From the NCBI GenBank assembly GCA_002205965.3, contig NADL03000675.1, positions 124,001-188,000 of the forward strand: a stretch of 64,000 nt of DNA. Reading direction: 5' to 3'. Under the pieces are notes generated by a model. It did no database searches and was not told the origin of the DNA. It saw only the letters and a program-made list of their open reading frames with translations. Both the position numbers and the translations under genes were made by a program. Below, in pieces: positions 12,988 to 62,591 of this stretch; position 1 is the stretch's first letter; each line of letters begins with the position of its first letter. The stretch comes from Kappaphycus alvarezii (lineage: Eukaryota > Rhodophyta > Florideophyceae > Gigartinales > Solieriaceae).

Positions 12988-13005
12988 GTACAGTACAGTA
13001 CAGTA
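12988..13005. promoter_or_regulatory. TACAGTA tandem array upstream of NLE1
   Basis: GTACAGTACAGTACAGTA is an uninterrupted run of the 5 bp unit ACAGT, lying 222-239 bp before the NLE1 ATG. The same array type occurs upstream of ORC3 and HSCB, which suggests a shared promoter element. No TATA box is evident. Confidence 0.55.
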
Positions 13006-13226
13006 GGCTATCCACTGTAGCACTGCAGCACAGGCGATTGAACGCGATGGTCGCCAACGGTAGTAGCGCCAGTGCAGAGCATAGCGCAAAGCAAAGCGAC
13101 GTGAAAGATCGGTTGACAGACTCTTTCACAAACCAGTACCTTCGGAGTGTACCGAGTCCGTTGGGAACCAGGACGGGAAAGTGAGCTTCCCTCAACTCAT
13201 TGCTGAAGCGGCATCCTACGCTCACC

Positions 13227-14687
13227 ATGGTGGGCGTCGAAGAAGATATGGCAGCCACTACAATTATCCAATTCCAGTCCCCCGAAGGTGATCCCGCCGG
13301 ACCTACCCTCGACGTCCCGCTTTCCTCCAATCCGTCCCAGCTCACCGCGCTTCTTAACGACCTGCTAAAGAATGAAGAGCCTGTTCCCTACGCTTTCTTC
13401 CTTTCTGACACCAGGGAGGAAATTACGAAGACCTTGCTCTCTTCCATGCAAAACGTCGCGGTCTCGTCTGAGAGAGTTGTTTCCGTCACTTTTCAGCCTC
13501 AATCGTTATTCCGTGTTCGTTCTGTTTCTCGCTGCACTAGTTCACTTCCTGGACATTCTGAGGCCATCCTTACCGCTGAATTTTCACCAGACTCTCAGAT
13601 GTTGGCCACCGGTTCGGGGGATACAACCGTGAGATTATGGAACCCGCAGTCACAGCTACCAGACAAAACTCTGAAGGGCCACGCCAACTGGGTGCTAGTG
13701 ATTGCCTTTTCCCCTGATGCAACCAAACTCGCGTCAGCCTCCATGGATGGTTCAGTAAGGGTGTGGGACCCGGCGCGAGGCGAGTTACTTGGACGCCCGC
13801 TGTTGGGCCATAAGAAATGGGTTACATCACTCGCATGGAAGCCATACCATCTAGAGGAACCTTGTCTACGACTGGTGTCAGCATCGAAGGATAACACTTT
13901 GAGGGTGTGGCACACGGGCTCAGGTTCTTGTGCGAAGATTTTGGTGGGGCATACGGCAGCAGTGACGTGCGTAAAATGGTCGGGAGATGGTTTAGTTTAT
14001 TCGGCATCACAAGATAGGACAATTAAGGTTTGGGATGTGGAGCGAGGATGTGCGGTAAGGAGTTTTGGGGCACACGGGCACTGGGTAAATGCAATGGCAT
14101 TGTCCACAGATTACGTCTTGAGATGCGGTGCGTTTCCGATGTTGGATGAGGCAAGAGGATATGTGCCCAAAAAGATGAACAGGGAGGAAGCTCGGGAAAG
14201 ATATGAAAAGGTGAAGAGGACCGGAGTGGGTGGAAAAGAGAGAATGGTGAGTGGTTCCGATGATTTCACTTTGATTTTGTGGGAAGATATTGGGAGGAGT
14301 GGGGAGACACGGGTGCAGCCAAAGGCTCGAATGACTGGGCATCAGCAGCTGGTGAATGATGTGATGTTTAGTCCAGATGGGCTGTACATTGCGTCTGCAA
14401 GTTTTGACAAGAGCATCAGATTGTGGGATGGGACCACAGGGAAGTTTTTGTTCACATTTCGGGGGCATGTGGGCTCAGTATATCGAATAGTTTGGTCAGC
14501 AGATGCACGGATGATGATGAGCGCATCGAGAGACAGCACATGCAAGGTGTGGGAAATTAGGACGAGAAAGCTAAAGGCTGATCTCCCAGGTCATGCAGAT
14601 GAGGTATATACGGTCGACTGGAGTCCGGATGGGAAACGGGCAGCGTCTGGCGGGAAGGACAGAGTAGTAAAAATATGGCACCACTAA
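13227..14687 (+). CDS. NLE1: Notchless/Rsa4 homolog, WD40 ribosome-assembly factor
   Basis: Intact single-exon gene of 486 codons. The frame is open upstream to a TTG at 13200, but the first ATG (13227) sits in a strong CACCATGG context and gives the usual length. Residues 10-95 form the NLE/ubiquitin-like domain (LLKNEEPVPYAFFLSDTREE); eight WD repeats follow from about residue 110 to the C-terminus, each with a GH...(L/V/I)W frame, for example GHANWVLVIAFSPDATKLAS. A characteristic NLE insert with KERMVSGSDDFTLILW precedes the sixth blade. In yeast and animals the ubiquitin-like domain binds the MIDAS domain of the AAA+ ATPase Rea1/Midasin to drive pre-60S maturation in the nucleus. An alternative generic WD40 call is unlikely given the N-terminal domain. 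Confidence 0.95.
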   Translation: MVGVEEDMAATTIIQFQSPEGDPAGPTLDVPLSSNPSQLTALLNDLLKNEEPVPYAFFLSDTREEITKTLLSSMQNVAVSSERVVSVTFQPQSLFRVRSVSRCTSSLPGHSEAILTAEFSPDSQMLATGSGDTTVRLWNPQSQLPDKTLKGHANWVLVIAFSPDATKLASASMDGSVRVWDPARGELLGRPLLGHKKWVTSLAWKPYHLEEPCLRLVSASKDNTLRVWHTGSGSCAKILVGHTAAVTCVKWSGDGLVYSASQDRTIKVWDVERGCAVRSFGAHGHWVNAMALSTDYVLRCGAFPMLDEARGYVPKKMNREEARERYEKVKRTGVGGKERMVSGSDDFTLILWEDIGRSGETRVQPKARMTGHQQLVNDVMFSPDGLYIASASFDKSIRLWDGTTGKFLFTFRGHVGSVYRIVWSADARMMMSASRDSTCKVWEIRTRKLKADLPGHADEVYTVDWSPDGKRAASGGKDRVVKIWHH

Positions 14688-15118
14688 GAAGACCCGTGCC
14701 CCGCATACTGAGCAGGGCATTTCAAAACTCTTTGAGTATCCAAAAAGGAGTTTCTTTCTTTGCTTTAGGAAACATTCCTTCGCCATTGTCAATATTGAGT
14801 ACGCTCTCAATACCCACATGGACTGTGCGCTCAGTGCGGCAGAACTTCCCACCCTGCAAGCCTCGTCCTCGTTGAAACTCAAGAAGCTCCTAACAGATGA
14901 ACGTTGTCATTAACTCGCACACACCTGTACGCAGCAATTAGACCAGCAGACCAAGTCATCTAGTGCTGTGATGCGTATCCCACGGTGAACATTGATTCAA
15001 TCTACCAGAAGCCCCCGGCCAACGATGTCCTCCAAGCCGTCCCGTCAGAAACAATCGGTACTGTACCTCACTTCCAACGACATTTTCTTTCTGCCGCCAC
15101 CGATTTGACATGAGTCGC
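14688..15118. other. Intergenic, convergent 3' ends
   Basis: About 430 bp between NLE1 and the minus-strand gene at 15119. Short ORFs on both strands have no recognisable features. It is expected to hold both 3' untranslated regions. Confidence 0.6.
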
Positions 15119-15691
15119 CTACACCAAGGCATCTGCCAAGCCTCTCTTTCCTTCTCCATCCCCATTGTCCCCTTCCTCGGTATGATCCATGTCTCGATAC
15201 CTGGAGTATATTGCGCTCCCCCTTCTCGTTAATTTTACTGCGAATAATCTCTTCGCACTCCCTGCCGTTTCCGGTCCTTTGCATACCATCTGCACCCTCT
15301 GTTGAACCTTCAGCATTCTTAAGCAATGCTTGAAATGTTTTCTACTTCGAAACAATCCTGATGGTTCCACCTCCCCGTACAGCTTGTCGTAATCCATCAT
15401 ATGTCCTTCATTCTGCAGCAACACATTGGCGATCTGCCTTGTCGGCAACTTGCGCACCCATGTTGGGGCTTGTTGAGCAGCTCGCTGAGCGGCGGCCTGG
15501 GCAGCTTGAGGAATGGCTGATGCCGCAGAGGCGACCGCAGCGCCTGCGGAAGTCGTGGCCATGATGCGAAACGAAGTGAGGGAGAAGTGGAGCGTTTGAG
15601 TTGCAGCGAAATGCGCGGCTGTCTCAGCACGAGACGAGGGCTCATGAAGCGTAGCATTGATCCGTAGGCCCAAGTGACGGACCGCTACCAT
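15119..15691 (-). CDS. Small conserved-looking protein, winged-helix-like, possibly mitochondrial
   Basis: An intact ORF of 190 codons starts at the ATG at 15691; a second in-frame ATG at 15562 would give 147 codons. The longer form begins with an Arg/Ser/Ala-rich, acid-poor leader (MVAVRHLGLRINATL) that could be a mitochondrial presequence. After an Ala/Gln-rich stretch comes a compact folded-looking region (WVRKLPTRQIANVLLQNEGH, MMDYDKLYGEVEPSGLF, RSRKHFKHCLRMLKVQQRVQ, LFAVKLTRRGSAIYSRY) with the helix spacing of a winged-helix domain and a short acidic tail. I do not recognise a family. Mitochondrial ribosome or organelle gene expression would be guesses. It is divergent from eIF3e, sharing a 368 bp promoter region. 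Confidence 0.6.
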   Translation of the reverse strand: MVAVRHLGLRINATLHEPSSRAETAAHFAATQTLHFSLTSFRIMATTSAGAAVASAASAIPQAAQAAAQRAAQQAPTWVRKLPTRQIANVLLQNEGHMMDYDKLYGEVEPSGLFRSRKHFKHCLRMLKVQQRVQMVCKGPETAGSAKRLFAVKLTRRGSAIYSRYRDMDHTEEGDNGDGEGKRGLADALV

Positions 15692-16059
15692 ACTATGTCA
15701 GGAACGGAACTGAATTAAAAAATACTAAAATTTGCCCATCACTTCAATTTTATTTTTATTTTATGCTTTACTGTACATCAGAGTAGGAAATTATTTATCT
15801 TTATATTGTGACCGACTTCTGGACGGTGTCGACGTCGGCATGTCAAAGGACCGTAGCTTGCTTCAGTAACGTTTCCGATTCCAGAGGTGAGGCTAGATTC
15901 CGCTTCATCTCACGCCGGTTGAGAAACAGTCAACAGCAATCTTCTTCGAACTCGTGAACTCCCTGATAAGAGTGTTGTAGACACTCGAGTGCAAGTCCCT
16001 CCCAGCTTCTGAGGTGGCCATAGTCGCCAGAATACGCAAGGTCTGGGCATTCAGCAACT
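15692..16059. promoter_or_regulatory. Divergent promoter region with TTTACTGTACATCA
   Basis: This 368 bp gap separates two divergent ATGs. It holds an AT-rich block (15714-15770) followed by TTTACTGTACATCA at 15768-15781, a single copy of the ACTGTAC motif found upstream of other host genes here. Confidence 0.4.
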
Positions 16060-17421
16060 ATGGAGTATGATCTTACGAGCACCGTCTCGGAGTTCTTGGA
16101 CCGTCACATGGTGATTCCACTTCTCGACTTCATAGGCGGCCATCCAAACATGAATGGTATCTACAGCAACGATGACATTATGAAAGCAAAACTCGATCTG
16201 CTTTCGAATACCGGTATGGTTGATTACGCTATTGAGACACATGTGGACCTCTTCAACACTGACCCCCCGGAAGAACTTGTCACACGTCGCGACAAGGTTA
16301 TCATGGCGCTTCAAGCACTCCAAGAAGATGCCAGTCCACTGTTATCCATTATTGGTGATGATGCGCTAATGGCTGAGCTGTCTGCCGCTAGTTCATTTCA
16401 TTTCGACTTTTTGTCAGAGAATTATGGAGTCACCGTCGAGGTACTCGAGGCCGTTTACGAGTTTGGAAAGTTTCAATTTGATTGCGGAAGCTACGAAGAC
16501 ACAGCCGCGTTGATGCAGGTGTATCGCATGCTCATGAACGGCAAGAATCCAGAGAGGGAGTTCTTCGCGTTATGGGGAAAATTTGCGGCAGATATTCTCA
16601 GCTTGAAATGGGATGCAGCCCTGGAGGACATGAACGCATTGAAAGAGGCTATTGATTCGAACGGGCGCGCTATTTTGCTCAACCCACTGCAACAATTGCA
16701 GCAGCGCACTTGGCTAATCCATTGGAGTCTCTTTGTTTTCTTCAACCATCCAGACGGTCGCAATATTATCACCGATCTTCTCTTCAGTGAGAAGTTTCTG
16801 AACACTATTCAGACTAACTGCCCACACATTTTACGCTACCTCACCACGGCTGTCATCACGAACAAACGCCGCAGGAATGTAATGAAGGACCTCGTCAAGG
16901 TTATTCAGCAAGAGTCATACGCGTACTCCGACCCCATCACGGAGTTTGTGCACTGCCTTTACGTCAATTTTGACTTTGAAGGTGCACAAGACATGCTGCA
17001 GAAATGCGAGGACACTCTTAAGCGAGACTTCTTTCTTGTAAGAACTCTGGATGACTTTTTAGAGGATGCGCGCAGGACCATTTTTGAGACTTACTGTCGA
17101 ATTCATCAAGTTATTGATATAGGGATGCTGGCCAACAAGCTGAACATGGATAAGTACGAGGCAGAAAAGTGGGTGGTCAATTTGATAAGACATGCGAGGC
17201 TGGACGCGAAAATAGACAGCCAAGCGAATCAAGTCATCATGGGAGTGACGGTCCCTAGTATCTACGAGCAAGTTGTAGACAGTACAAAGAATTTGCTTAT
17301 CAGAGGAAGCGCACTTGTTCAGAACTATGATCGACCGCACGGATATAATGCTGGAAACTATCGTGGCGACGATGAAAGAAGGAACAGAAGGGGTGGGAGA
17401 AGAGAGATCAGAGCAAATTAG
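16060..17421 (+). CDS. EIF3E: Translation initiation factor eIF3 subunit e (INT6)
   Basis: Intact single-exon gene of 453 codons, close to the 445 residues of the human protein. The N-terminus (MEYDLTSTVSEFLDRHMVIP, then LLDFI) matches the conserved eIF3e opening, which in animals reads nearly the same. The middle is helical repeat (FHFDFLSENYGVTVEVLEAV). The C-terminal third is the PCI domain with its winged helix (DIGMLANKLNMDKYEAEKWV, then NLIRHARLDAKIDSQANQVI), ending in an Arg/Gly-rich tail (GDDERRNRRGGRREIRAN). The subunit is part of the PCI/MPN octameric core of eIF3, which helps recruit mRNA to the 40S ribosome. The CSN and 26S lid PCI subunits are excluded by the N-terminus. Confidence 0.95.
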   Translation: MEYDLTSTVSEFLDRHMVIPLLDFIGGHPNMNGIYSNDDIMKAKLDLLSNTGMVDYAIETHVDLFNTDPPEELVTRRDKVIMALQALQEDASPLLSIIGDDALMAELSAASSFHFDFLSENYGVTVEVLEAVYEFGKFQFDCGSYEDTAALMQVYRMLMNGKNPEREFFALWGKFAADILSLKWDAALEDMNALKEAIDSNGRAILLNPLQQLQQRTWLIHWSLFVFFNHPDGRNIITDLLFSEKFLNTIQTNCPHILRYLTTAVITNKRRRNVMKDLVKVIQQESYAYSDPITEFVHCLYVNFDFEGAQDMLQKCEDTLKRDFFLVRTLDDFLEDARRTIFETYCRIHQVIDIGMLANKLNMDKYEAEKWVVNLIRHARLDAKIDSQANQVIMGVTVPSIYEQVVDSTKNLLIRGSALVQNYDRPHGYNAGNYRGDDERRNRRGGRREIRAN

Positions 17422-18600
17422 GTTGCTGCGTCATAAGTGAGATCCAATTTCTTTAATTCGTGATTGCGATGCGTGCAGCTTTCGATATGCTTGCAATTCT
17501 ACCCGCAGACAAGAAATGTAGCGGCGAAAGTATTTTGTGTAGTCTACACGCTGCTGACGCGTTAGGAGCGAATGTTTCGATATTGGTCTCGGGAAACGGA
17601 TCTCTGTCCAAGAGCCCCTTTCCTTGTTCTCGGCCGTCAACCTTCGCAAGGATACTTTGTGTATCAGCCTTTAGCGTAGTAGTCCTAGTTGACATTAATT
17701 TCGATGAGGGCCTTGACTATCAAAGAAAAGTGGAGACATTGGACCGAAATGCCCGTTTCTGTGAGACCCTCGTGCTCGCACGGATGCCTTTTATGCGCGA
17801 ACGAGAATGCAAGAGCGGTGGTGTGCGAAACGCGGATCAGGCGATTCGGGTCGCAGCACACCCGCGGCCAGCGATATGTTTCAGAGAGGAATTCGTGCCT
17901 TTCCCAAGCAGGATCCGTATTCAGGTGCACGGATTCACCAAGTCGAAGTCCAGTTGTCAGTTGGTTGCTGGTAAGGGGTCAAATCGTTACGCGAGGCGTA
18001 TGGTTTAGTTTGTAGTATCAGACTCTCTCTCCGCAGGAATCGGAGGGGCGGGCTCGACGAATCGTGCACACGGATGCAGTGACACAGTGAGGATGGAGGC
18101 GAATGCAGGCCAGTGCTGCGAGGATTTGCTCGCGTCCGGACAGTTATTATAGCAGCTAGATGTTGGCATGTAGAGGCTGGGGAGCGGACAGGCGTCGTGG
18201 GGTTCTTTCGGCTCCCTCCGTATTTGTGAAAGTGATGGGGAACGAAACTCGCAGTTAGTGCGTACCGGAGGTGGTGGTTGGCGGCGAGAGCAGTGTGGTC
18301 TTGGGCATTTTGAGGTTGGAGTTCAGTAGGAAACCTGACGTTGCGGATGGTCTTGAGTGCCATCTGCACTGGGTAAGTGCGATGGATCATGGTGGAAGGC
18401 TGGTGTTTCTATTGGCAGTGAGTCAGTCGCAACGGTCGGGGAAGCGTTGACAATCAGACTTGCAGATTAAGGGGGCATTCAACTTCAGCCAGAGGTTATT
18501 GCCGGAGGCTGCACCAACTTTTGGAGAGCATACCGTGTATGGGTAGAGCATGCTACGGGACAGTTGTTCCAACGTTTATAGACATGACATAGTTACGCGC
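17422..18600. other. Intergenic with no confident gene
   Basis: Several overlapping ORFs exist here: 182 codons on plus from a non-ATG start at 17460, 80 codons on minus from an ATG at 17695, and 151 codons on minus at 17935-18390. None shows a domain or compositional sign of coding. The minus ORF at 17453-17695 (beginning MSTRTTTLKADTQSILAKVD) has the most protein-like composition and could be a small gene, but I cannot support it further. Confidence 0.4.
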
Positions 18601-18606
18601 TAGTTC

Positions 18607-19058
18607 TTGTTGCATTCCCGTAGTGTTGCATTCGTGCGTAGTGCTGCATTTGTCCTTTGCACTGTGATCTTGGGTACTGCGTTACTCACTACCTTCGCTG
18701 CGCTCCGTACACCCGCTGACGGGGTTGCACTTTTTCATTCCAAAGCTTTCTCGGTCTGGTTTCAATGCTACTGTCAGGTGTCACTCTCCGCTCCCAAAAC
18801 CCCGTGCCCCAGGAACAGCTGCGTCGAAACCCTAGGCATCTTCGGTGACCACATCATGCACTGCTTGCATGGGCGAGAGCGGGTAGATGGTCACGACTGC
18901 CAGGTCGCAATTCTCACGTCGGACTTGGCAAAGGCCGCTCTGCACCCGGTCATGGAGCCTCGTTTCAATGTTTAGCATTGTGCGAGGCCAGATATCAGGG
19001 CTATAGAGAGTAGTGAAGGGACGAACAGCTTCGATTTTGCATTCGTGGAGCGTACAAT
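18607..19058 (+). mobile_element. R2-like RLE retroelement fragment (lineage B)
   Basis: The reading frame carries a CCHC-type zinc knuckle (CPRNSCVETLGIFGDHIMHC) followed by GRERVDGHD, then after an in-frame stop at 18973-18975 the endonuclease motif RPDIRAIESSEGTNSFDFAF. CCHC plus RPD...D is the C-terminal signature of R2-type non-LTR retrotransposons, which nick the target with a restriction-like enzyme. The reverse transcriptase is missing. The fragment ends at the start of the ORC3 promoter motif array, so it inserted or was trimmed very close to a host promoter. Two longer relatives lie at 58236-60110. Confidence 0.75.
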
Positions 19059-19061
19059 CGC

Positions 19062-19108
19062 ACAGTACAGTACAGTAGTGGACCTCTGGTGTGCATCCTG
19101 TACAGTAT
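19062..19108. promoter_or_regulatory. ACAGT array upstream of ORC3
   Basis: ACAGTACAGTACAGTAG at 19062-19078 and CTGTACAGTATAG at 19098-19110 lie 100-146 bp before the ORC3 ATG. It is the same motif as upstream of NLE1 and HSCB. Confidence 0.55.
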
Positions 19109-19207
19109 AGTGCTGTAAAACTGCAATGCGCGGATTACTCAGTTCAAAATCGCATCTTCAGCACATGCATCTTCCGCAGCCCTTTTGTCGCAACCCAATC
19201 CCCGCCA

Positions 19208-21177
19208 ATGAAGCGCTTCGTTCCCTCTACGACTCATGTATCTTCTGGTATTCGCATCATCCCCAAAAAACCAAGGAAAGGCCCTTCCTCAGCCCATTCG
19301 TCAAACTCCCTTGTCAAGTCTTTCCTGTCTACCTGGGAAAGCTTTAATTCTTCTTTCACCGCCTCTCTTCATGTTCTTCGTTTCAGTTCTCTCCAGTCCA
19401 TCTCCAGTGCCCTTGCCGAAAGCCCGCCTGACAATTCTATCCCAGCTGTATGCGTAACCCTAGGGGCTGCCGCAGCCGCCGGTGACCGCTCCGACATATT
19501 TGATGCCATCCTTGAACACGTTGAAAATTCTATTAGCTCGGCTACTATTCTACGCCTCCAAGCAGCACATCATGCATCCATGCCTGCTGTAACCCAACAA
19601 TGGGAAAATCTCCCTCGCACAACATTTCTTATCGTTGCAGTTGATGACGCCGATTTGTTTCCAGAAGCTGTTATTCGAGATCTGGTTTACATGCTCGGTA
19701 GGAAACGTGAGCAGCGTCGTGTTTCCATGCTCTTGGGCTTTGGAAAGGGCGTTGATACTTTGCATGCCGCTTTGGGAGTACAGGAGGCAACTATGATTGC
19801 CATGACTTCTGTGCGCATGCCCTCAGCAGCCGCATGTTTTGTACAGTTGATCGAAAAAGTATTGGCGGAAAGGGAGTGCCCAATGATGCTGAGTGAGGGA
19901 GTGTATGATTTATTGGAGAGGGAGTTCTTTGAGAGGGAGAGCACGGTGACTGTATTCGTGAGAGGATTGCGAACATTGTTAGCGGCCCATTTTTATCGAT
20001 ACAGACATGCACGGGTGCTGTTGAAATGGGAAAAAAAGGCCAAGAAGGGAATGAGGCTAGATCTCGAATGTATTCAGTTCGTGCAACAAGATGTGAGGTC
20101 CGTGGGGATGGAACTTGCGAAGGAGCACACGGAATTAGATCAAGAAGCTCTCGGAGTGAAAGTGAAGCAATGGCTTAATGAAATGGACAACTGGCGGAGG
20201 AAATGTGCAGTGATCGAGCGTGTTATCTATAAAATTTTGCTGCACCTTGGTGTAGAGGAGTTGCCATGGATGAGAGAGAGGTCATTGAGTACAGATCTAA
20301 GGTTACAGGTATTTCGAGCATTTTTGGTGGTGCGCACAAGGAAGGATCATTATGCTGTGAATACGGAGAAGTTGCACTCAATAATTGGTGATAAGGTGCG
20401 AAGGTTGAGATCCAAGCAGCATTTGACAAATATGATTGAGGTTTTTAAGAAGGTGCTGAAGGATGAGGAGATAGAGCATGATGAGGATCTCGTTGATATA
20501 CATGGCAAGTTGGAAGATCTTGCCGATGTTTTGGAAAATCTAGTGAAGGAGAATACCAAAGTGGGTCAACGGCCAGTGGATAGGGAAACTGACCAACGCC
20601 CTAGGATAAATGCAAAGGGTGGACATGCTGCGAAAGGGCGTAGAAGACGACAACTCGTATCAAGTGCTGCCAATTTGGAGAAGAAGAACTTCCTACAGGA
20701 ACCCCTACAAAAACTGATGTACATATTTAAAGATCTCCTGGACATTACGCCACTGAGTGAACTACCTATGCATGAGTTGTTTCTATTGTGTTGTACCTCA
20801 GATCTGAAGCGGCTGTCTGGAGGACTGGGAGGGGCTGCTGAACCGAGAAATTCGTTTTTCACTGCCGTACGGCATCCGGAGATAATTTCAGAGGAAATTT
20901 CGGATGCGGTCCTACCGGACACCGCAGCGGCATATCGGTTGCTTGCGGAAGGGGACGGATGAAGAACATCTATGACTGGTACAATGGGTTTTCAACCGTT
21001 AAGACTGCCAATGCTGTGCAGCGAGATGACGACGGAAAGTTTAAAGGGTTTGAGGATATCCCGCAAGCAGAACTACAAGCGAGATTTGCAAGGGCTTGCT
21101 CAGAGCTAGAATTCTTAGGTTTGATGAAGTACACCAACAGGAAAGCGGACCACGTGCTTCGTCTAACTTTTGAATAA
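19208..21177 (+). CDS. ORC3: Origin recognition complex subunit 3 (one apparent frameshift)
   Basis: The first ATG is at 19208; upstream codons are open but lack an ATG. The AAA+-like core is recognisable by TTFLIVAVDDADLF (Walker-B-like strand) and VSMLLGFGKGVDTLHAALG, followed by the long helical ORC3 insert. The frame stops at 20960-20962, but the conserved C-terminal winged helix continues in another frame from 20959 (NIYDWYNGF, then ARACSELEFLGLMKYTNRKA and DHVLRLTF), matching animal ORC3. Adding one G to the GGGG run at 20951-20954 restores the family's conserved Gly-Arg-Met just before this region and gives 656 codons (human ORC3 has 711). I infer a missing base, not a split gene. ORC3 is a structural subunit of the replication-origin-binding complex. 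Confidence 0.9.
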
Positions 21178-22935: not shown

Positions 22936-23029
22936 CTCAAGGCAATTGTTAGGGAACGCGGTATGTAGCTTGATGTACAAACCGCTATCCAGCCGCTCAA
23001 ATTGGCTTTAGCGACTCGTCGAAGTAAAC

Positions 23030-25437: not shown

Positions 25438-25787
25438 GTACAGTAATACGGCGAGTTCCACATACAGTGAACTGCATCCATATTGTCTGACCAATGGCTT
25501 TGATCCAAGTCTCCAACGTATCAAGCAAAAAACAAATCAGATGCCTCAAATCTGAAATCTTAGATAAAATCTCCGACACGAATTCTGTTTTGAAATCTGC
25601 CCGCATGGAAACAGAAAAGGTACAGTAATAATCTGCTTTGCTGTACAATGCACAGTACAGCACTGAACAGGGTGTACACGTGACTGTACAGTACTGTATA
25701 CCGTCTTGTCGATAATGTCGAACATTAAGCCGGTGTGGGTTTCCGCACTGTGTGGCCATATACTGTAATGGTGGAGTCTTACTGTAA
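25438..25787. promoter_or_regulatory. Cluster of TACAGTA/ACTGTA motifs upstream of the CENP-B-like gene
   Basis: At least seven copies occur in 350 bp: GTACAGTAAT (25438), TACAGTAA (25621), CACAGTACAG (25651), ACTGTACAGTACTGTATA (25683-25700, containing the palindrome GTACAGTAC-TGTAC overlapping its neighbour), TACTGTAA (25760) and TACTGTAA (25780). The cluster lies 300-650 bp upstream of the minus-strand ATG at 25138. Confidence 0.5.
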
Positions 25788-26647
25788 ATGAAACTAATCG
25801 TAAGAGTCGATCATTGACATTTGATACGCAGAAACCATCCATCGGGATCAAAGCAGTGCTGCCAAAGTCTTGGTAAGTTTACAATCCAAAAGGCGGAGCG
25901 TTTCATGTGGCACCTCAGGGGAGCTCAAGCGATAGGGCGCTCGTATGACGATTAGGGTTGAGTCAGGTCAAGCGCGGGGAATACCGGGGTGGGCGGCGCG
26001 CGCGTTGCCGGCAACAGTGCAAGAACCAAGAGTCTCGGGTTTCCCCTGGATAGCGTGTCCATGAGAAATCCCGGGAACTAGGCTGTGCAGTGGGTCAGGG
26101 GGAGGTGGCGGGGGAGGCTACTGCGGCTTTGGCCGAGCGAGGGGCACAATGAATCCTGGGCAGAAAACATCGTGCAGTTTCCCCCTGCCGTCACACTTTT
26201 GCAACCGAAGGAATTACAGATTTTGTCTGACTGCACTCCACTAACCGACCACATCTTCCATGCATTAAAATAACCCAAATTTTCCCCTCCACTAATCATG
26301 TCCTCTGCGTTTGACTTGCGCTCCTTAGCATGTGATGTGACTATCGTCTCTCTATTCAAGTTTACCAGCGGTCTACGGATATTATCCATTGAATATGCTC
26401 GCTTTGTCGTAGGCTCCCAATTACAGTAGTTCATACTGTAAGTCCGCTTTAGTCAGTGAGCCGACCTACTGTTAAAGCATGACAAAATCAAACAACGCTA
26501 GTTTACTGTACAAGACCCCACTCTTCAAAAACCGGCTTACAGCTCTATTTACTCGAGTACAGTAACTTTCCTGATCAAATCTGCCATCAACCACCTCCTC
26601 CCACCATCGTCCAACCAGTACTCACTGATCTGTTTCCGGTAACCACA
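25788..26647. promoter_or_regulatory. fabZ upstream region with further ACTGTA motifs
   Basis: No gene is seen in these 860 bp. The stretch 25970-26110 is GC-rich. ACTGTA/TACAGT words occur at 26421-26440 (TTACAGTAGTTCATACTGTAA, an inverted pair), 26504-26511 and 26558-26565; the last is about 85 bp before the fabZ ATG. Confidence 0.45.
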
Positions 26648-27417
26648 ATGCCTTTCGCCTTTGTCTCCGCCCCCCTATTCACGGGAAGCCCTCGCCGTTC
26701 GGAAACCCCGCAAATATGTTCACGCCGTCCGCATTCATATCGGCCACGCTTCCGGGCAGCAATCGATGCATCGGCTCCTACCGCAAATCCTCCTATTACC
26801 GTCTCTGACATGTCCACATCCCCTGCCACCCATCCCACGATTTTCGATGTTGAACAAATCATGAATATTCTTCCTCATCGCTACCCATTTCTACTCATCG
26901 ATCGTGTCATAGCTTACGAACCAAACAAGCGTGCTGTCGCTGTTAAGCAGGTTACAATTAATGAGCCGCACTTTCCTGGGCATTTTCCGAACCGCCCCAT
27001 CATGCCAGGTGTTCTACAAGTGGAGGCCTTGGCACAAACTGGTGGTATCGTTATGTTGCAGCATGATGAAAATCCAATCAAGCAAACAGGTGAAGGCGAC
27101 TTTTTCTTTGGAGGCGTTGATAGCGTGAAATGGCGTAAGCCTGTCGTTCCAGGTGATACCTTGGTAATGGAAATGGTCTGGATAACTTCAAACCCAAGTA
27201 TGGCATCGCCAAGATGATTGGAAAGTACGTTATCACCTCAACATCACATTGTTCTCTATGGCCTAACACTGGATCGAATCTCGCCTCTGTCTCACATCAA
27301 CCTCTCCTTTATGTTGTGTTTTCCTTCCCGAAACCATTGTGCATTTTCAGAGGATACGTCAACGGTCAGCTTGTCGTTGAGGGCGTTTTCACCCTGGTTA
27401 TGGTAGTTAAGAAGTAA
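26648..27417 (+). CDS. fabZ: Plastid 3-hydroxyacyl-ACP dehydratase (one intron, one apparent frameshift)
   Basis: The ATG at 26648 opens a 60-residue Ser/Arg/Pro-rich transit-peptide-like leader with an early Phe (MPFAFVSAPL). The mature enzyme begins near IFDVEQIMNILPHRYPFLLI. Catalytic residues are His112 in PHFPGHFP and Glu126 in VLQVEALAQ. The frame changes once near 27176-27182: GVDSVKWRKPVVPGDTLVME lies before it and KPKYGIAKMIGK after it, consistent with one missing base. A GT-AG intron follows at 27225-27350 (GTACGT ... TTTTCAG), joining IGK to GYVNGQLVVEGVFTLVMVVK and the stop. With one base added the protein has 214 codons. It performs the dehydration step of plastid type II fatty-acid synthesis. 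Confidence 0.93.
27225..27350 (+). other. Spliceosomal intron in fabZ, 126 bp
   Basis: The donor GTACGT follows GGAAA and the acceptor GCATTTTCAG precedes AGGATAC. Removing it joins two blocks that are contiguous in FabZ proteins. Its length is a multiple of three and it contains no in-frame stop, so retention would insert 42 residues rather than truncate the protein. It is the only convincing intron in the window. Confidence 0.85.
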
Positions 27418-34370: not shown

Positions 34371-34553
34371 CGCATTAAACTTCTTTCTTACAGTATATAC
34401 TGTCAATGACGATAGGGTGCTCTGATAGGTCGAGAATGATCGAAATTTAACACTTGGGAATCCTCTTGTTCCAGTCGCAGTTGATCGCATGCGATTGTCG
34501 CAGAAATATGGACACGTTTCAAGGAATCGAAATGTCCGAACCGGAGCAGTGTT

Positions 34554-34653
34554 TTACTGTACGTACAGTAACGTGTACAGGGCTTTTCTAAAGTGTCGAT
34601 TGCTGCGTTTGGAGTTTGGAGCCGTAATGCTGTGCAAGTTGGGTTACAGTAAA
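34554..34653. promoter_or_regulatory. ACTGTA palindrome cluster upstream of the dehydratase gene
   Basis: TTACTGTACGTACAGTAA at 34554-34571 is a perfect 18 bp palindrome built from two inverted copies of the motif. GTGTACAG follows at 34573 and TTACAGTAAA at 34644. They lie 510-610 bp before the first ATG of the coding region, which may have an unrecognised 5' exon in between. Confidence 0.5.
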
Positions 34654-37996: not shown

Positions 37997-38809
37997 AGTT
38001 GACAATGGTAAATAAGGTCTGAGCTCCAATGGCGATGGAAATAGGGTTGGCGGGGTTTGTGGTTGCAATCTATTAAGGCCGATATGTGACACGCGAAGTG
38101 GTAGTTGAAGCGAGTGAATTTCGACAAGGTTAAGATAGGCGCAGTTAGAGATGAGAGGCTACCACAGTTAGAATATCACGGGAGTCGAGGGAGCACGATC
38201 TTGCCGATGTGGGTTGTGTGGGAACGCTTGGAAGTTGTCAACCGGGTGAAGGTGGCCAAAGTCGGAGGATAACGGCGAAGGCGGAGGAGGGTGAGTAGGG
38301 ACAGGTGAAGTCGGAAGGCTGCGAAGTGGATTTTATGCAAGTTTCTCAGCTACGCGACACGAAAGAAAAACAGTGACAGGCTGTCTTTCAAATTGTTTCC
38401 ATAGGACCGTTTTCGTTCACCTGCAAGAAGAAATAACAACTTTTGAAAAAACTGGGGACTGTACCATATTCTATCCATAATTTGGTAAATTGAACGCTCA
38501 GCTGTCTCTCGTAATTGGCTACTGTAACCCCTACAGAGCGTCGCAAAATGTCCAATCTTGAAAAAACTGCCGTTTGAATCCGACTGTTTCAGTTTTTAGG
38601 TTTGACGCCCAACCATTCTTGGCCACCCTATCGGTGTCTGGAGCCTCCAGCTCTTTGTACAGTACAGTACAGTACGTACAGTACTGTACTGACCGGTTAA
38701 TTTTTGGTAGACAACACCTCAGTCTGGTGGGATGCGTGACAGGTCTAGCGCTAGCGCTGCCCACTCACTACAGCCAAGCCCTTGCATCGGTTACAACAAA
38801 ACCAATCCA
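37997..38809. promoter_or_regulatory. Shared divergent promoter with a 35 bp ACAGT array
   Basis: The gap separates two divergent host genes. GTACAGTACAGTACAGTACG followed by TACAGTACTGTACTG (38657-38691) is the longest such array in the window and contains the perfect palindrome GTACAGTACTGTAC. A further TACTGTAA lies at 38520. The array is about 120 bp upstream of the HSCB ATG and 660 bp from the RRM-R3H ATG. Confidence 0.6.
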
Positions 38810-48605: not shown

Positions 48606-48660
48606 AAAAAAACTTCAGAAACTTCACTATTTAAGAAAATAAGGGAGGCTTCTGACGAAT

Positions 48661-50850: not shown

Positions 50851-50879
50851 TCGCTGATGTTTGAGGACAGTCGTGAGGG

Positions 50880-51454
50880 GCTTTTCGTGAACATTTCTCT
50901 ACATGGGCGCTCATGACGGTAGAACTACCGGCGTTCGGGGAGTCGTAGCGGAGTGGGGTCGGAGATCGTTGAGAAAAGGAGGCGAAAGGGGGTTAAAGGT
51001 TGGTTTTTGAGTGTTGATTCTGAGGGTGGGCGTGTTGAACACGGGTGGAGCCGGGGCTATTACAGGCTGTTTACTGTGACAGAGTGTATTAATTTTACGG
51101 ATGGGCCACGAAAATGATTTCGTGACCTATCCGCTTGTGTTAGCAGGGTATTTCGTGTTCTGATGTTTTTCCGGCATAGTGTCATACCATTCATACGTGT
51201 GTACGAAAACAACTACGATTTTCGCAAAGCATAATTTCTCAATTTTCTTAAGTATTGAAAATTTGGAAGTTTTCTTTTTTTGTCGTACGTATTTGCAAAC
51301 CTTTCGCACGTACGCCAAGCTTTGTCTCATGTACTTACTTTCCTCGCAAGAGGCCTTGAAAAACCGGCCTGTGGTATCTCATTTGCCACCACTGTATTTG
51401 AAATAAATGTCCGTTTAGGTCATGGAAAACCTCATATTCAGCTACCCGTATGAT
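50880..51454. other. No gene; isolated Tc1-type terminal repeat
   Basis: The only notable feature is TTTGCCACCACTGTATTT at 51380-51397, the same terminal sequence as the right end of the element at 8649-10222, including the flanking TA. No partner end is found nearby, so it is a solo TIR or the end of a lost copy. Confidence 0.5.
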
Positions 51455-51810
51455 TAATAAGGTTGAATGAGTTCTATTTGTGTCTTTTATTTACTCAACG
51501 AGGATCATGCACTCAAGGTGCTCTACTTATACTATTTCAGGCGGAATTCTGGGCTGGTCACCCTCTGCTCTGAAGTCCGTTAGCCCTAACCGGCCGCATT
51601 CATTAGCCCTAGTATCTGTGAACCCGCCATTCCTCTTCTGTGAGTAAATTTGCACCTGCTGTAGATAACAGTAGGCAGATTCAGGGGTACAATGGTTATG
51701 TGCCCTGCTCTCACTGTAACCCTACAAAACAGTTATTCTTAAAAAATCAAACAATACTCCTGTATGTACCCGCGCATGACTCGGTGCTCTCGAACCTACT
51801 GTACTCCACA
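51455..51810 (-). repeat. Copia 3' LTR
   Basis: 356 bp, bounded by TAATAAGGTTGAAT and ACTGTACTCCACA on the plus strand, the same limits as the other LTR. Inside, a GAGGAGGAA purine tract lies just past its inner edge (minus strand, near 51820-51830), a candidate polypurine primer. Confidence 0.9.
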
Positions 51811-51879
51811 CACGTTAAAATTCCTCCTCAACTGCATCCCGAAGTCCAATTCGACTTACCATCTCATTAAATCTGATTC

Positions 51880-55400: not shown

Positions 55401-55570
55401 TTCCGGATTGAAGGTCATTCGCAAAAGCATGAGAAACGGTATCGATGTTAACGGACTCGTCGGAACTGCCACTCTCATCAACTCCTTGTGAGTGCGATGT
55501 CTGTCCGCTTTTTGATTTAAGTCCAAGATTGCGACGATAATTGTACTCTGAGAAACCCTCAGCGTTATAC

Positions 55571-56172: not shown

Positions 56173-56451
56173 GATGTATTCGGCGATTTTTCTGAGAACG
56201 ACTGTGGGTTGATATAAATGTAGAGATGAACTCAACAGTTTAGCCTCGTGGCAGATGGGTCCTCAACATTTTTACGTCCTGGCAGACAAACTACTCTGTT
56301 TAGAGCCTTCTTGGGCTATTTAGGACAGAACTACACCGTTTATAGTCTTGGTGGACTTTCTTCTGTCTTCTTCGACTGATGGGGACGAAGATCCGGAAGA
56401 GCAAAGTTGATTGTTGACTCGGATAAAGCGTTGATATCCGGGCCCATAACC

Positions 56452-56807
56452 TAATAAGGTTGAATAAGTTTGAGTTGTCTCTTTACTTTACTCAACGAGG
56501 ATCATGCACTCAAGGTGCTCTACTTATACTATTTCAGACGGCATTCTGGGCAAATCACCCTCTGCTCCGAAATCCGTTAGCCCTAACTGGCTGCATTCAC
56601 TAGCCCTAGTATCTGTGAACCCGCCATTCCTCTTCTGTAAGTAAATTTGCAACTACTATAGATAACAGTAGGCAGATTCAGGGGTACAGTGGTTATGTGC
56701 CCTGCTCTCACTGTAAGCTTACAAAACCCTTATTATAATAAAATCAAACAATACTCCTGTGTGTACCCGCTCATAGTTCGGTGCTCTCGGACCTACTGTA
56801 CTCCACA
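56452..56807 (-). repeat. Copia 5' LTR
   Basis: 356 bp, the same length and ends as the LTR at 51455-51810, with scattered substitutions. Just inside it the minus strand reads GGTTATGGGCCCGGATATC, a possible primer-binding site, but it is not the initiator-Met match usual in copia elements. Confidence 0.88.
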
Positions 56808-56899
56808 AACATCAACAATGATGTTTTCTGCGGTTTTTACGCTAGTCAACTACTGTGATTTAGATCGCTTTATGGTATTTTTCTAATATTTAGCTCTTT

Positions 56900-57740
56900 T
56901 TTAATTTTCCTTCAAACTCGAAGTTTGTGGCCCTGAAGACGCCTGTCATACTTACTACTTACGAGGCATTATGTAAACTATGGAATGGCCAGGGCGGACC
57001 ATGAAGAAACAATTAAATTCATTCTCTAGGGCCTCTGATCTTCCATTTTTGACTCTATCGTGGTACTCACGTGAAGGGCCCCTGGATCTGGAGCTAAGTC
57101 CATTCCTTTCAACGGATATAGCGATGTTAACAAGTTCTTCCTCTTCTTCTATGGCAACGAAGTGATGGCCGGGAAGTCCAGTGAAGAGAAGGAATTATCC
57201 CTCCCTGGACACCTAGATGGACCTGCATTTGAGTTCTACTATGATTCCTTCGCAACCCAAGGAGAGCCGATCAAGGATGCCAAGGACAACGGCGTTATCA
57301 ACGAGAAGGTCTTCGAACGTTTCGCTGAGGACTAAATGCCCCAGGACGCCATCCATCAAGCGCTGGAAATCGGTCTCGAAATTGAAGACATGCAGTACTG
57401 AGATCCTTTAAGGAAGCAGAGCGTTTGTACGAGAAGGGTAGTTTTGATAATGTCGCAAGATTCGGGTCACTCCAGACTGCTGCATGCTGACATGAGCATT
57501 TTCAGCAGTTCCTGTCGTTCCGAGTGCCGAAGAATCACGCCGATCTATTGAAGGCTGTAAAGGACTTTCACGTGAATCTGAATGCTTTCTCCGGTTCCAC
57601 GTCTCACATTATGGAAGTACCGCCGGCAAGACTCTTAAACATAGAGGATAAGGTGGATGCCCTTGTCGAACGTACAAAAAGCGTAGATCATGGCACCTTT
57701 CCACAAAGGAAACCCACCTGGATGTAGGAGACACTCCACC
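56900..57740 (+). pseudogene. LTR-retrotransposon gag-like fragment
   Basis: The plus strand reads FNGYSDVNKFFLFFYGNEVM, AGKSSEEKELSLPGHLDGPA, FEFYYDSFA, VFERFAED, then in another frame SFRVPKNHADLLKAVKDFHV and GSTSHIMEVPPARLLNIEDK. The F-x-G-x-x-DV opening and the LPGHLDG-AF-Y block are typical of Ty3-type gag in algae. Two stops and a frameshift break it. Confidence 0.6.
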
Positions 57741-58235
57741 ACGGAGGTAGCCTGGTTTACGCTGTTTCCCAAAAATTGAAACAACACGGTATTTAAAGCA
57801 CTGACCAGAGCCTTCCCAGTAAACTTTGAGGCATCTAACCCACCACTGCGAAATGTATACTTTGCGCACACAACCTTGAAGCACACACCAGTACAGGAGC
57901 AATATCAAATGGCGCTTCCCTCTCCCTCTTGTATCATGCAGCAAACGCGTCACGCGTCTTCAGTCCTCCCGCCGCTTAATTGCGATCACAGGGGTAAACC
58001 TCATGGACCTACCCGCAGGTGATGTTGAAAATATATTCGCAAACTCAAAAGAGGGGGGGACTTGGGGTGCATTACTGATTAGAGATGTAGGACGATTATT
58101 TGCCGAGGCGGGGGGAGCAGATCTGTGTATTGGAGGGTCTGAATAGGAGACAGTCAGGCGGGACCTTCTCATAAGGCAGGTGGAAGACCAGCCGTCACAC
58201 ACGTCGCGTTAGACGAACCCGTCGCCGCAGCGTGT
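57741..58235. other. No gene seen
   Basis: About 500 bp between the gag fragment and the RLE element. Only non-ATG shadow ORFs occur. Confidence 0.45.
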
Positions 58236-59069
58236 CTATGCATGAGGACGGATCGCATCCGCCGGAAGGTCTCCATGGGTCACTCGGCGACATGCCTGGG
58301 CACGTCTGTCAGCACCGCGAATGCCTGGGGATGCCAGCCTCAAAGAGTGGATATTGGCACTGGGATCAGTCGGGACTTGGCAGACGTAGTGATAAACTCT
58401 TGATACCTTCTGAACTTTGACGTTTTCGCGGCGTTCACAGTTATCAAGGGGTTGAAACATCGGGCCGTGTGTTTCAGGTAGAAAATGGATTCACGAGTGC
58501 GGTGGTGGTAAATGTTTATGTGTTGTGCGGAGGGTATTCATAAATTAACTACGGATGCGGGCGGCGGGTGGAACCTGTCGCGCCTGCATTACTTGGAGAC
58601 CAAACGCAAAACGGGTAACGAAGTCGCGGAGCTCCCGTTGAGGGGAGGAACGACGAGTCTAGCGTAGAAGAAGTCTGTCCCTCCGGTGCTCCCTATAGCC
58701 CTGATATCTGGCTTCGTGCGATGTTGGCCATTTGGACGGGCTCCATGACTGGGTGCCCGGGTGCCCGGCGGCCTTTGCCAAGTCCGACGTGAGAATTGTA
58801 ACCTGGCGGTCGTTACGATCGATCCGCTCTCGGCCGTGCAAGCAGTGCTGACCTAAGATGTCCAAGGTTTCTGGGCAGTTGCTCCCGGTGCATGGGATGT
58901 TAGGAGCAAAAAGCGGTACCTGACAGTACTGAAACCAGACCGACAAAGCTTTGGGATCAATGTGTAAACTCATCGCTGCCGCGGCTTTTCTGGATCCCCG
59001 CGCCGCTGCCGGCACGCTTGGCCGCTCTATCTTACCGGTTTCCGTACAAGCGCTCAATACATACGACAA
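58236..59069 (-). mobile_element. R2-like RLE retroelement 3' part (lineage B), with nested insertion
   Basis: Minus order: SVWFQYCQVPLFAPNIPC, a CCHC knuckle (CTGSNCPETLDILGQHCLHG), RIDRNDRQVTILTSDLAKAA, then frame-shifted RPDI-R-AI sequence near 58700. The C-terminal homology (matching FNPLTSLNTAKTSKFRR of the plus copy) resumes at about 58470-58240. Between them, 58513-58655 is a copy of the repeat at 2250-2400, so another element inserted here. Confidence 0.72.
58513..58655 (+). repeat. Dispersed repeat shared with 2250-2400
   Basis: TGTGCGGAG.GTATTCA.A.AT.AACTACG, then GGCGGCGGGTG and CTTGGAG.C.AAACGCAAA.CG.GTAACGAAGT.GCG are shared in order with 2262-2375. It is nested in the minus-strand RLE element. 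Confidence 0.75.
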
Positions 59070-59149
59070 CGCGGTAGTCGCCTATAGAGAGCGCTCCACT
59101 TGTCCGCAATTGAGGTGGTTCCGTTCAGTAACTTTTGCGCTAAGAACCC

Positions 59150-60110
59150 ACCCTGACAAAAGAAACTGACAAACACAATTGACGAGGCGGCACAGGAACG
59201 CTTACCGCTTGGCGACAGTGGGAGACAAGCTTTACTGTCGTCAATGGGCCTCCCCAGTGCTAAACGATGGATATAGTGTGCACTATGTCCGGGCCTTAAC
59301 ACACATCGATGCGAAGGCTTTCTCTGTCTGGTTTCAATGTTACTGTCAACTACCACTCTTCGCTCTAAACACCCTGTGCCCCAAGGGCAAATGCTCGGAC
59401 AAACTCGACATCTTCGGCGTTCACCTCATTCAATGCTTGCACGGACGAGAGAGGATCGACCGCCATGACCGCCAAGTGACAATTCTCACGTCTGACTTAG
59501 CAAAGTTCCTCCCCATTACTATGTCGGCACACCTTTTTGAGTCGATTGTGGTTGTCTGGAAAACTTTATGGTAGATTGAATATATCTTCCAACAGTAAAA
59601 ACTCCCAAAACTTCCCCCTTAGCAAAGGCCGCTCGGCACCCAGTCGTGAAGCCCCGCCCCAACGGCCAACATCGCACGAGGCCGGATATCACCGCCATTG
59701 GAGATGGCAAGGAACGAACTTTTTCGACGTCACATTCGTAAACCCACTTGCCCATTCAAACGCACGGGTCCATTGCTTCAACCCCTTGACATCTTTGAAC
59801 ACCGCGAAAACATCCAAGTTCAGAAGGTATCTACAGTTCATCACCACGAATGCTACGTCCCGACTGATCCCAGTGCCAATATCCACTCTTGGACGGTGGC
59901 ACCCCGACGCATTTTAGGTGGCAAGATACGTGGCCGTTAGAGCCACGGAGACCTTCGGTCAGGTGCGATCTGCCCTCATGCAAAGACATGCTGTGTCGAC
60001 GGTTTATCCAATGCAACATGCCTTACGGCTGGCCTCACGCCTTACGGCTGGCCTCACGCCAGTCCTGTAAGGCCGTCTGCCTCATTCCGTCTCCAATGCT
60101 TAGACCTGCC
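59150..60110 (+). mobile_element. R2-like RLE retroelement 3' part (lineage B)
   Basis: Plus order: FSVWFQCYCQLPLFALNTLC, CCHC knuckle (CPKGKCSDKLDIFGVHLIQC), RIDRHDRQVTILTSDLAKF, an interrupting 80 bp (59510-59610), then the nuclease RPDITAIGDGKE and FFDVTFVNPLAHSNARVHCF, and the C-terminal SRLIPVPISTLGRWHPDAFQ. RPD plus DVTF gives the PD-(D/E)XK core with the Lys in GDGKE. It is in inverted orientation to the copy at 58236-59069 with about 80 bp between the coding starts. A 19 bp tandem duplication (CCTTACGGCTGGCCTCACG twice, 60020-60057) lies in its tail. Confidence 0.78.
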
Positions 60111-61260
60111 CACCACTGCCCGGTACGTAGCCGTTCCACATCCCTAAACTCAAAAGTGTCGAAAGCTATTGAGGTCTACGGCAGGTCTACAAGTTGAAGT
60201 CGAGCAATCAACTCCGATTTAGAGGTTCTGCACTACATTTTTTCTGATCGTAGCTAGCCTACCGGCCAAGAACCGAACAATTCGTCTCCCAGTATGGCAG
60301 CAGGCCTGCTTCAATCTTCAGTTACGCATCTCAGTTCCTCGCGCAATATGAGGCGGTGACTGAAGTATAGGTCGCAGAGTAGGTCGCAGCGTGGGAGAAG
60401 CATGAGTCGCATCAGCAATAGGGTTGTTGGCGGGGGTAGCAGGGTGAGCGGGGTAGGGCAGAGTGTGGCAAGGAGGTTCGCATGGGCGTGGAGGGCTTGG
60501 ACCAAGGCGTAGCGGAAGTATGACGGGACCTCTGAGTGGAAGGTCGGGTTTTGGAGGCATGGGGCCATGTTAACCAGGCAGTGGTGGACGCCTTGGGAGG
60601 CGTGGGTGATGAGGTGCGCAGCGAGTGCAGGAAATGGGGCACTATGTAGCTGGAGGACCGGGAGTTGGAAGGAAAGTAGCGGAGAGGGCACGGATAATGG
60701 CAAGGAGGTAGGGCTTCTGGACATAGATGACAGCCCAGCGGCCCAAGCACGGAATACCGAGGTGGGGCGGTCGATAGTTGTGGGCTACAGCTGCCCCGAT
60801 TAGGAGGATGCGGAAGTATTTCTAGGAGGTGAAGGAGACAGAGTGGTCATTGGATGGGGCAACGGCGGCGGAAGAAATACGGGTTGGACGCAGTTCGGGG
60901 CGACCGACGTGGAGATTGAAGGTGCGGATCTTCCGCAAAGACGCGGACACTGATTGCATTTGGAGGGCGGCGTTGGGGGAGGGGATTGGAGGCAGAAGCG
61001 CTTAGCAAAGCCACTGTGGCGGGTTGTTCGAACAGGGGGTGGTGGCGGGAGACTCCGTGGCTCCGGGGGGAGGGGAAAGGCCCACGGATTACTGTCCAAA
61101 TACTGGCACCATCGACCCCGAAAAATCGCCCGACGTCCGTACCGCACGTGCCTCCCTTCACCCTCCCGAAACTCATGGTTTATGCCAAGGCGCGCACATT
61201 CTGCGAGGATCACCTTTGGGACGCTTAAGCCAACCCCCCCGACCACAGCGCCACGGCGAT
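60111..61260. other. Repeat-derived sequence with no firm assignment
   Basis: GC-rich region with long Pro-rich minus-strand ORFs (60311-60724 and 60800-61393) that look compositional. It adjoins the lineage A fragment downstream and may hold its degraded upstream part, but I see no RT box. Confidence 0.4.
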
Positions 61261-61269
61261 TCACCGACG

Positions 61270-62110
61270 CGCTCGCGGCAACTCCCTTCTCTCCCCTAGC
61301 CCCTCCGCTTTCCGTACTGGCCAACCCTTGGCCACCTCCAAGGCCCGCAACGATTTCTGGCCAGTTATTCGGCGCCGACACTTCGACCTTCACACTTACA
61401 AGGCCCCGGTAGCCCGATCCGATGGCATCATTGCTGTGCCCCGAGGGATCCGTGAGGTAATCACACCTCGATCTGCAAGTCTGGCGCTGGCGTTGTGCAC
61501 TGTGACAACACCATTCAGAGTCTATTCACCAGCCATGTTTTCAAGTCCGCCGCTCTCGCATGTCAACAAGGGGCTCCCTTCCTCCTGGCTGGCACCGCCG
61601 ATCGCCCCGCTGACATTCTCGTCCAGCTCAGCCCCCCCCAATCCATGGTTCGCCTCCCGACAAGCCGACCGACTGCTTATGAAATTACAGTTCGCCCTAT
61701 TTTTGCCTCTGCTACCATGTGACATGCTGCGGAAAAATCCGCCAGTGCCGCTGAGCTCGCTGACGCCTCGAAACTTAAGATGTTTCAGCGGAGAGCGCAC
61801 GACGCACTCTTCCCTGAGGACGCCGAACCGTCCCCCACGTCCAGCAGCACTTTGTCCCGCTCGCATTTGATATCATTTGCGCGTTCTCTGCGCGTTCTCA
61901 ACGTGTCCTTGACGACGACTTTAAACGGATCTCTTTCCGCTCTGCTCGTCGATACTCCGTCGTCAAGGCCCAACTGTCGCAAGAGGTAAGTTTTGCGATT
62001 TAGTCCAGTAACACCGCTGGCGTTCTGTACTAGCCCGCATGGCGTGCCGCGGCGAGAACCAACATCCCCTCCTGGTATTTGTCGCCCAAGAAAGCTCATG
62101 AGAAAGTCGT
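61270..62110 (+). mobile_element. RLE retroelement fragment (lineage A)
   Basis: Plus frames read SKARNDFWPVIRRRHFDLHT, then SLFTSHVFKSAALACQQGAP, then the nuclease motifs ADRPADILVQL and AYEITVRPIF, then SKLKMFQRRAHDALF and a C-terminal LAFDIICAFSARSQRVLDDD. Frames change at least three times. This is the same order as the copies at 21856 and 31200. Confidence 0.7.
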
Positions 62111-62591
62111 AATCCCTGGCATAATTCTGCACTGCTACTACCCCGACCGGCCCCCTCAAAAATTATGCTACAGACCCCCGCTAGTAGACACTATCTAGTC
62201 AACGAAATACGGTAACAGAAAGCATTGGAAAGGCGCATTTACAGTAAAAGACTGTAACCGCGGAGTCAGCCTGCTCAACTTACGTAGAGCATAAAGAATT
62301 CATTTTGTAATTCAAAATATCAGAAATTATCCAACACAGCTGGCTCTTAAATCTCCGAGTGGCATTTTGATTGGTAGGGTTTGTTTGAAGACAAGCCTGC
62401 AATTTCAGATGCATTTGAGGCTCAAGTCTTAAGCTCTTCCATTCCTCGAATTGCTTGCTAAACGTTTATTGATATTCATTAGTGGGTCGCCCGGTATATA
62501 GCACGGTTTTTGACCACTTCGCCGCAGGCTGCGTGAACTCTTTGTCAACAAACTCGCCGCTCCTCCAGAATTTTCTCCTACGATCCTAGTC
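62111..62591. promoter_or_regulatory. Phycoerythrin gamma upstream region with inverted TTACAGT/ACTGTAA pair
   Basis: 480 bp without a gene. TTACAGT-AAAAG-ACTGTAA at 62239-62257 is a perfect inverted pair of the motif, 335-353 bp before the ATG at 62592. Confidence 0.5.

Follow-up and report, generated by a model that had tools for sequence, protein, structure and literature searches.

Heat-shock elements consist of contiguous inverted 5-bp units, GAA and TTC, in chains of variable length; SBP-domain proteins bind sites with a GTAC core, and bZIP proteins bind TTACGTAA sites. To our knowledge, red-algal promoters are little charted. In the present study, we analysed a stretch of 64,000 nucleotides of the red alga Kappaphycus alvarezii (positions 124001-188000 of contig NADL03000675.1; hereafter the window) together with other pieces of its 336,021,096-bp assembly, and focused on the heptamer TACWGTA, which in the window is strict in its letters, highly over-represented, often chained and concentrated upstream of genes. 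We propose that TACWGTA functions genome-wide as a promoter-proximal regulatory word bound by a putative dimer or multimer. This reading leads because the upstream concentration holds in the window and the word is enriched elsewhere, and we judge it about as apt to be right as wrong. Among the titles and abstract openings of the literature searched, no paper tied the word to red algae or promoters. TAC(A/T)GTA is reported as the canonical excision footprint of Sleeping Beauty (PMC3432063, PMC4378557), and in a moss, Tc1-like elements end in CAGT...ACTG and are flanked by TA (PMC4054914). A transposon excision footprint, which matches the word letter for letter, is a candidate rival that an earlier interpretation of the window made without database searches (hereafter the sequence-only reading) overlooked.

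The window contains 23 copies of TACAGTA and 18 of TACTGTA, and because these are reverse complements that differ in the middle base alone, the 41 copies represent one odd palindrome, TACWGTA. Its centre was strict, with A or T in 41 cases compared to one C and one G. Relative to a second-order Markov expectation, TACWGTA was the top-ranked 7-mer by z-score (41 observed, 5.2 expected) and GTACAGTA the top-ranked 8-mer (26 observed, 1.4 expected), and in 300 simulated windows the word occurred 5.05 times on average and 11 times at most. The excess was also found in 14 pieces picked by contig number (L002-L015, 132 kb; 86 copies, 17.1 expected) and in the 80 kb adjoining the window (37 copies, 8.5 expected). 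In the pooled 276 kb, 164 copies stood against 29.8 expected, with a z-score of 24.6 among all TA-NNN-TA strings and of 5.1 for the runner-up. A z-score ranking of all 7-mers in 16 other pieces (L002-L006 and L009-L019) again put TACWGTA first. Furthermore, the three-unit string TACWGTACWGTACWGTA, to which a chain of n units contributes n-2 counts, had 14,226 matches in the genome, compared to none for the reversed control. As it is enriched in other pieces of the genome, TACWGTA is a genome-wide feature that extends beyond gene promoters. An origin of the word by chance, from base composition or from one repeat family has in its favour that about 30 of the 164 copies are expected by chance and that a few copies in long terminal repeats (LTRs) are duplicates. 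However, the simulated maximum of 11, the reversed control and the flanks of the sites, which are mostly unrelated to one another, speak against this explanation, whose probability we put close to nil; for the word taken overall it is refuted.

Other descriptions of the word were considered and dropped. A longer palindrome as the true site was rejected, since the mean over 121 sites revealed no clear pairing beyond the heptamer and two exceptional sites alone departed from this. An asymmetric 8-mer, K-TACAGTA, was suggested by G or T preceding the A-centred word at 27 of 29 single copies in the window, yet it was abandoned because the share fell to 49 of 80 in other pieces. RNA genes were also rejected, as no Rfam match at the gathering score was obtained in 13 pieces (L002-L010 and L012-L015).

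Position relative to genes was assessed at 12 start codons of the window, which were predicted from open reading frame (ORF) calls and Pfam. The 600 bp upstream of these codons (5,903 bp) held 24 of the 41 copies and the coding sequences (12,099 bp) none, the other 17 being in the 45,998 bp outside both; zones of 800 bp held 28, leaving 13 outside both these zones and the coding sequences. Counted as clusters, 13 of 27 lay in the 600-bp zones (binomial p 2e-7), and the same genes had three copies in 4,962 bp of downstream 600-bp zones, compared to the 24 upstream (p 1.7e-4). In a ranking of upstream against remaining DNA, TACWGTA came first of all 7-mers (p 2.3e-17 before correction), ACAGTA first among 6-mers and GTACAGTA first among 8-mers; the word was first noticed in the window on which these position tests were run, and the k-mer rankings guard the choice of word, not of window. 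A copy was present within 600 bp upstream of 10 of the 12 genes. The concentration relative to coding and downstream DNA expected of promoter-proximal elements was found for these 12 ORF-called genes of the window.

The sites stand before genes of varied function. The three-unit chain TACAGTACAGTACAGTA (12989-13005) lies 222-238 bp before the ATG of the NLE1-like WD40 gene (13227), and a single TACTGTA (15769-15775) lies between the divergent genes at 15691 (minus strand; an unassigned small protein) and 16060 (plus strand; eIF3e, with 79% identity to Agarophyton chilense and 77% to Gracilariopsis chorda, which marks the alga as a florideophyte). ORC3 (ATG at 19208) is preceded by a two-unit chain (19066-19077), itself preceded by CACAGTA at 19061, likely a decayed third unit, and by a single TACAGTA (19101-19107). 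Six heptamers at 25439-25786, including a chain at 25687-25698, lie 304-645 bp before the start of a gene for a helix-turn-helix (HTH) protein (25138, minus strand), and four at 26422-26564 lie 87-223 bp before the fabZ ATG (26648). The fabZ ORF (26648-27217) covers 109 of 138 positions of the FabA profile and, because it ends before the profile does, an intron or frameshift is likely. The prephenate dehydratase ORF (35164) has four heptamers 516-772 bp ahead of it (34389-34651); two of them, 9 bp apart, form the 18-bp palindrome TTACTGTACGTACAGTAA (34554-34571), an 18-mer that occurs once in the genome. The divergent RRM-R3H/HSCB promoter contains a single TACTGTA (38520-38526) and five heptamers (38658-38688), in a three-unit and a two-unit chain with a 9-bp step between them, 47-71 bp before the HSCB ATG (38732). 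A single TACAGTA (62240-62246) stands before an ORF named phycoerythrin gamma in the sequence-only reading, which had no Pfam match; this ORF and that of prephenate dehydratase may have upstream exons. The remaining two genes are VTA1 and PhyH.

The places named in the sequence-only reading, before NLE1, ORC3, RRM-R3H/HSCB, a CENP-B-like gene (the HTH gene), fabZ and the dehydratase and at 15769, all carried the sequence described, and VTA1 indeed had no copy within 800 bp, as was also the case for PhyH, which that reading omitted. The perfect inverted pair claimed at 62239-62257 stood in part, in that ACTGTAA at 62251, the inverted partner of TACAGTA, is a half copy rather than a second full heptamer. 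The distinction drawn there between palindromes and arrays is an artefact produced by the symmetry of the word: since the odd palindrome TACWGTA chains with a 5-bp step, it gives rise to palindromes, inverted pairs and arrays alike.

This step was evident in the 276 kb, where 18 of 46 nearest-neighbour spacings of at most 60 bp were exactly 5 bp and any other spacing occurred at most four times. Chain centres were examined in the first 100 listed TACWGTACWGTACWGTA places, all on contig 1, which form 55 chains of at least three units. Chains of three, four, five, six, seven and eight units numbered 27, 19, 5, 2, 0 and 2, respectively. Neighbouring centres were the same in 80 cases and different in 75, and uniform centres occurred in 12 of the 55 chains, compared to 9.5 expected at random. 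On the listed strand, 123 centres were A and 87 were T, and the two chains of eight units together had 15 A and one T. Because chain centres are random, slippage of a microsatellite was ruled out as the sole cause. A broader version, a neutral self-expanding palindromic micro-repeat, (WGTAC)n, in which 5-bp slippage adds units, template switching at GTAC flips the centre and promoters tolerate the result, is in keeping with the two chains of eight units, nearly or fully uniform, and with the suggestion of one-unit growth at a site in piece L082 described below. It leaves the strong enrichment and upstream bias of single heptamers, the great majority, unexplained by slippage, and its centres should be copied instead of random; we consider it quite improbable.

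The chains bear also on the possibility that TACWGTA copies are scars of Tc1/mariner elements with CAG...CTG ends. Such elements would insert at TA and leave three bases on exit, so that TA-C(A/T)G-TA results; random repair of the A.A mismatch between the overhangs would yield either centre, renewed insertion into the new TA would add 5 bp each time, and open promoter DNA would collect scars that coding sequences lose by selection against frameshifts. The form of the word, with its A or T centres (41 compared to two others), is that of the canonical footprint, and overlapping chains with a 5-bp step (18 of 46 spacings) and random centres are predicted better by this scenario than by a binding site. 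One-mismatch neighbours of TACWGTA numbered 750 compared to 581 expected, an excess of 169 beside the intact excess of 138, which by our own rough estimate is near the ratio of neutral decay. All eight flanking pairs were palindromic at two of 146 sites, as opposed to none of 14,207 other TAs, which also favours footprints; these two sites are a single copy (L012, 941) and a four-unit chain (L002, 1183). Finally, the window contains a decayed Tc1/mariner-like element (8649-10222) with inverted ends CAGTGGTGGCAA, 66-nt inverted arms that are 79% complementary, a TA at its right flank and a TG at its left, and a remnant of a Tc3-type HTH (E 1.8e-5), which represents a candidate class of source for footprints.

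However, relatives of repeat DNA did not behave as footprints would predict. Repeat copies of the window and L002-L019 gave 227 alignments with 59,528 columns in total, and of the 17 five-base gaps in these, none corresponded to a CWGTA unit. Among 3,152 empty copies of CTCAAAAAGGGTATACCGACACAG, a 24-base piece of a short high-copy repeat searched with at most three mismatches, none had a 5-bp insertion between the two TAs of its TATA, though many are perhaps too young. Relatives with a bare TA, differing by the presence or absence of 5 bp, were not found, within the limited power of young or closed repeat DNA. At a two-unit chain in L082 (position 992), relatives in L006 and L013 were 5 bp shorter and one in L012 was 4 bp shorter, that in L016 aligning poorly; because the shorter relatives hold letters like TACATTG, TGCAATG and TACAATT, insertion of 5 bp can account for the second unit at most. 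The alignment suggests that the second unit may have been added in this way and that the first seems to have arisen by substitution, and this is the one case at most in which chain growth by 5 bp was itself observed. The CAGTGGTGGCAA end family, to which our search for ends was directed (no systematic search covered other Tc1-like families), comprised one element and one TA-flanked end in the window, and no TA-flanked end in L002-L023; the TA-flanked end is solitary, at 51394 (minus strand). Clusters common to both LTRs of a copia element must predate each copy, and imprecise footprints were weakly in excess (TACTGTTA, 14 compared to 5.7 expected; TACAGTGTA, 4 to 1.9; TACAGCTGTA, 2 to 0.4). 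The results from paralogues and empty sites lower the standing of footprints, though the repeats compared may be too young or not open to insertion, and we regard this scenario as possible but rather doubtful.

Retrotransposons carry the word too. The copia-like element of the window has one heptamer in its left LTR (51455-51813; heptamer 51797-51803) and the same one in its right LTR (56452-56810; heptamer 56794-56800), the two LTRs being 90% identical. The description of transposon copies as only scattered is an understatement, as 13 copies, these two among them, lie outside the 800-bp zones and coding sequences. Eight copies occur within about 330 bp behind a copia pol ORF in L007 and nine in a second copy of the repeat, part of the cluster resembling an internal duplication; the pol identity was read from the letters of the ORF, and the window element has a gag match besides. 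From their place behind pol, these terminal regions would represent the promoter-bearing U3. In other LTR-type elements, four copies in L008 were retained in an inverted copy and two in L003 in a copy 5.15 kb away. Four sites in repeats could be compared with informative relatives, and at all four the word differed from these by substitutions, in one alignment also with a one-base gap, as would be expected of binding sites that come and go. Other repeats were noted in passing. The copia-like terminal region at L008 440-950 is also rich in GTACACGTGTAC-like palindromes with the G-box core CACGTG. The short high-copy repeat with the 3,152 matches, which contains TTGGAAGATATATCCGATC, lies at L009 4100-4340, with relatives in L003, L006, L010, L013, L022 and the window (59498-59620). 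Five perfect copies of one repeat word in G000:C3:29811-80876, spaced by 12767, 12762, 12755 and 12758 bp, suggest a long tandem repeat with a spacing of about 12.76 kb.

Outside the window, an ERG4/ERG24 ORF in L019, which may have an upstream exon, has copies 241 and 328 bp ahead of it, and four lay 160-244 bp before the TTG start of another ORF of L019 without a Pfam match. In L081 (contig 1), a two-unit chain lay 106 bp and a six-unit chain 405 bp before an ORF not scanned against Pfam. The six-unit chain and a five-unit chain in L082 (contig 1) were chosen blind to their surroundings; the latter lay about 660 bp past the end of a copia-type ORF, likewise not Pfam-scanned. Several observations weigh against a regulatory word: no gene was identified within the 2 kb examined around the L082 chain, a two-unit chain in L012 stands behind, not before, a hydrolase gene, no copy occurs within 990 bp of the PCNA ORF in L022 or in the 1,245 bp of L022 preceding the ELMO ORF, upstream exons being possible in both, and VTA1 and PhyH lack copies. 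Furthermore, gene-poor DNA is enriched (the 86 copies in L002-L015), overlapping 5-bp chains share base pairs and could not all be filled at once, and their as good as random centres are not predicted by a binding site. The general promoter element of the sequence-only reading is partly supported: the concentration upstream of genes held in the window, with 24 copies upstream, three downstream and none in coding sequences, and the word is enriched elsewhere, while position at the few genes outside the window was mixed and LTRs carry copies.

Considering these results, we rank a regulatory word first, with our confidence evenly divided, excision footprints second, as a doubtful possibility, and a neutral palindromic repeat third, as rather unlikely to be correct, and propose the following scenario for the first. 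A sequence-specific protein, dimeric or made up of several subunits in a row, would recognise TAC and GTA as inverted half-sites separated by a single A or T. Most host promoters seen have between one and six copies, at about 50-800 bp from the start codon; where these overlap in chains with a 5-bp step, they may offer several registers for alternative or cooperative binding. LTR retrotransposons have the word as well, in terminal regions that would contain their promoters. That a protein binds the word, that it does so as a dimer and that transcription is affected are inferences. It is also conceivable, though unlikely, that promoters were built from Tc1/mariner scars, chained at hot spots and adopted by a host factor, possibly derived from a transposase, with LTR elements copying the sites; in that case, frequent insertion into and excision from open promoter DNA would have made the 5-bp footprint the most common over-represented word in the genome. 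If the regulatory reading is true, a major algal lineage would have a general promoter word shared by unrelated genes, which would give initial access to the factor behind it; if the footprint reading is true, promoters would have been rewritten by transposon excision on an unusually large scale. With 14,226 three-unit matches, the word is abundant enough for one pair of related genomes to decide.

Among described systems, the Sleeping Beauty and Tc1/mariner footprint shares all seven letters with the algal word, including the A/T centre, and accounts for the 5-bp chains and their lack in coding sequences, though chains of footprints were not reported in the titles and abstract openings surveyed. 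The alga differs in having no clean 5-bp presence or absence among paralogous copies, in the concentration of the word upstream of genes in the window and in a number of copies that exceeds the elements seen. In a viral contig (L068 261-11727, IMGVR_UViG_3300021400_001201), inverted repeats resembling TTTACTGTA-NNG-TACAGTAAA recur in a long series at intervals of a few hundred bp, with 63 heptamers in 14 kb; this looks like a series of repressor operators. Its TACTGTA and TACAGTA halves stand in inverted repeat, as in the algal word, but the series is roughly regular with an AT-rich extended palindrome, and has no link to the alga. Compared to SBP-domain sites, algal chains contain GTAC, whereas single copies need not, and compared to the bZIP sites, the half-site TTAC/GTAA is similar, with the algal halves separated by one extra base. 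Chains like those of heat-shock elements share with TACWGTA the 5-bp unit, the alternating orientation and the variable length; the algal chains differ in their half-site, TAC/GTA, in the overlap of neighbouring units and in standing before unrelated housekeeping genes.

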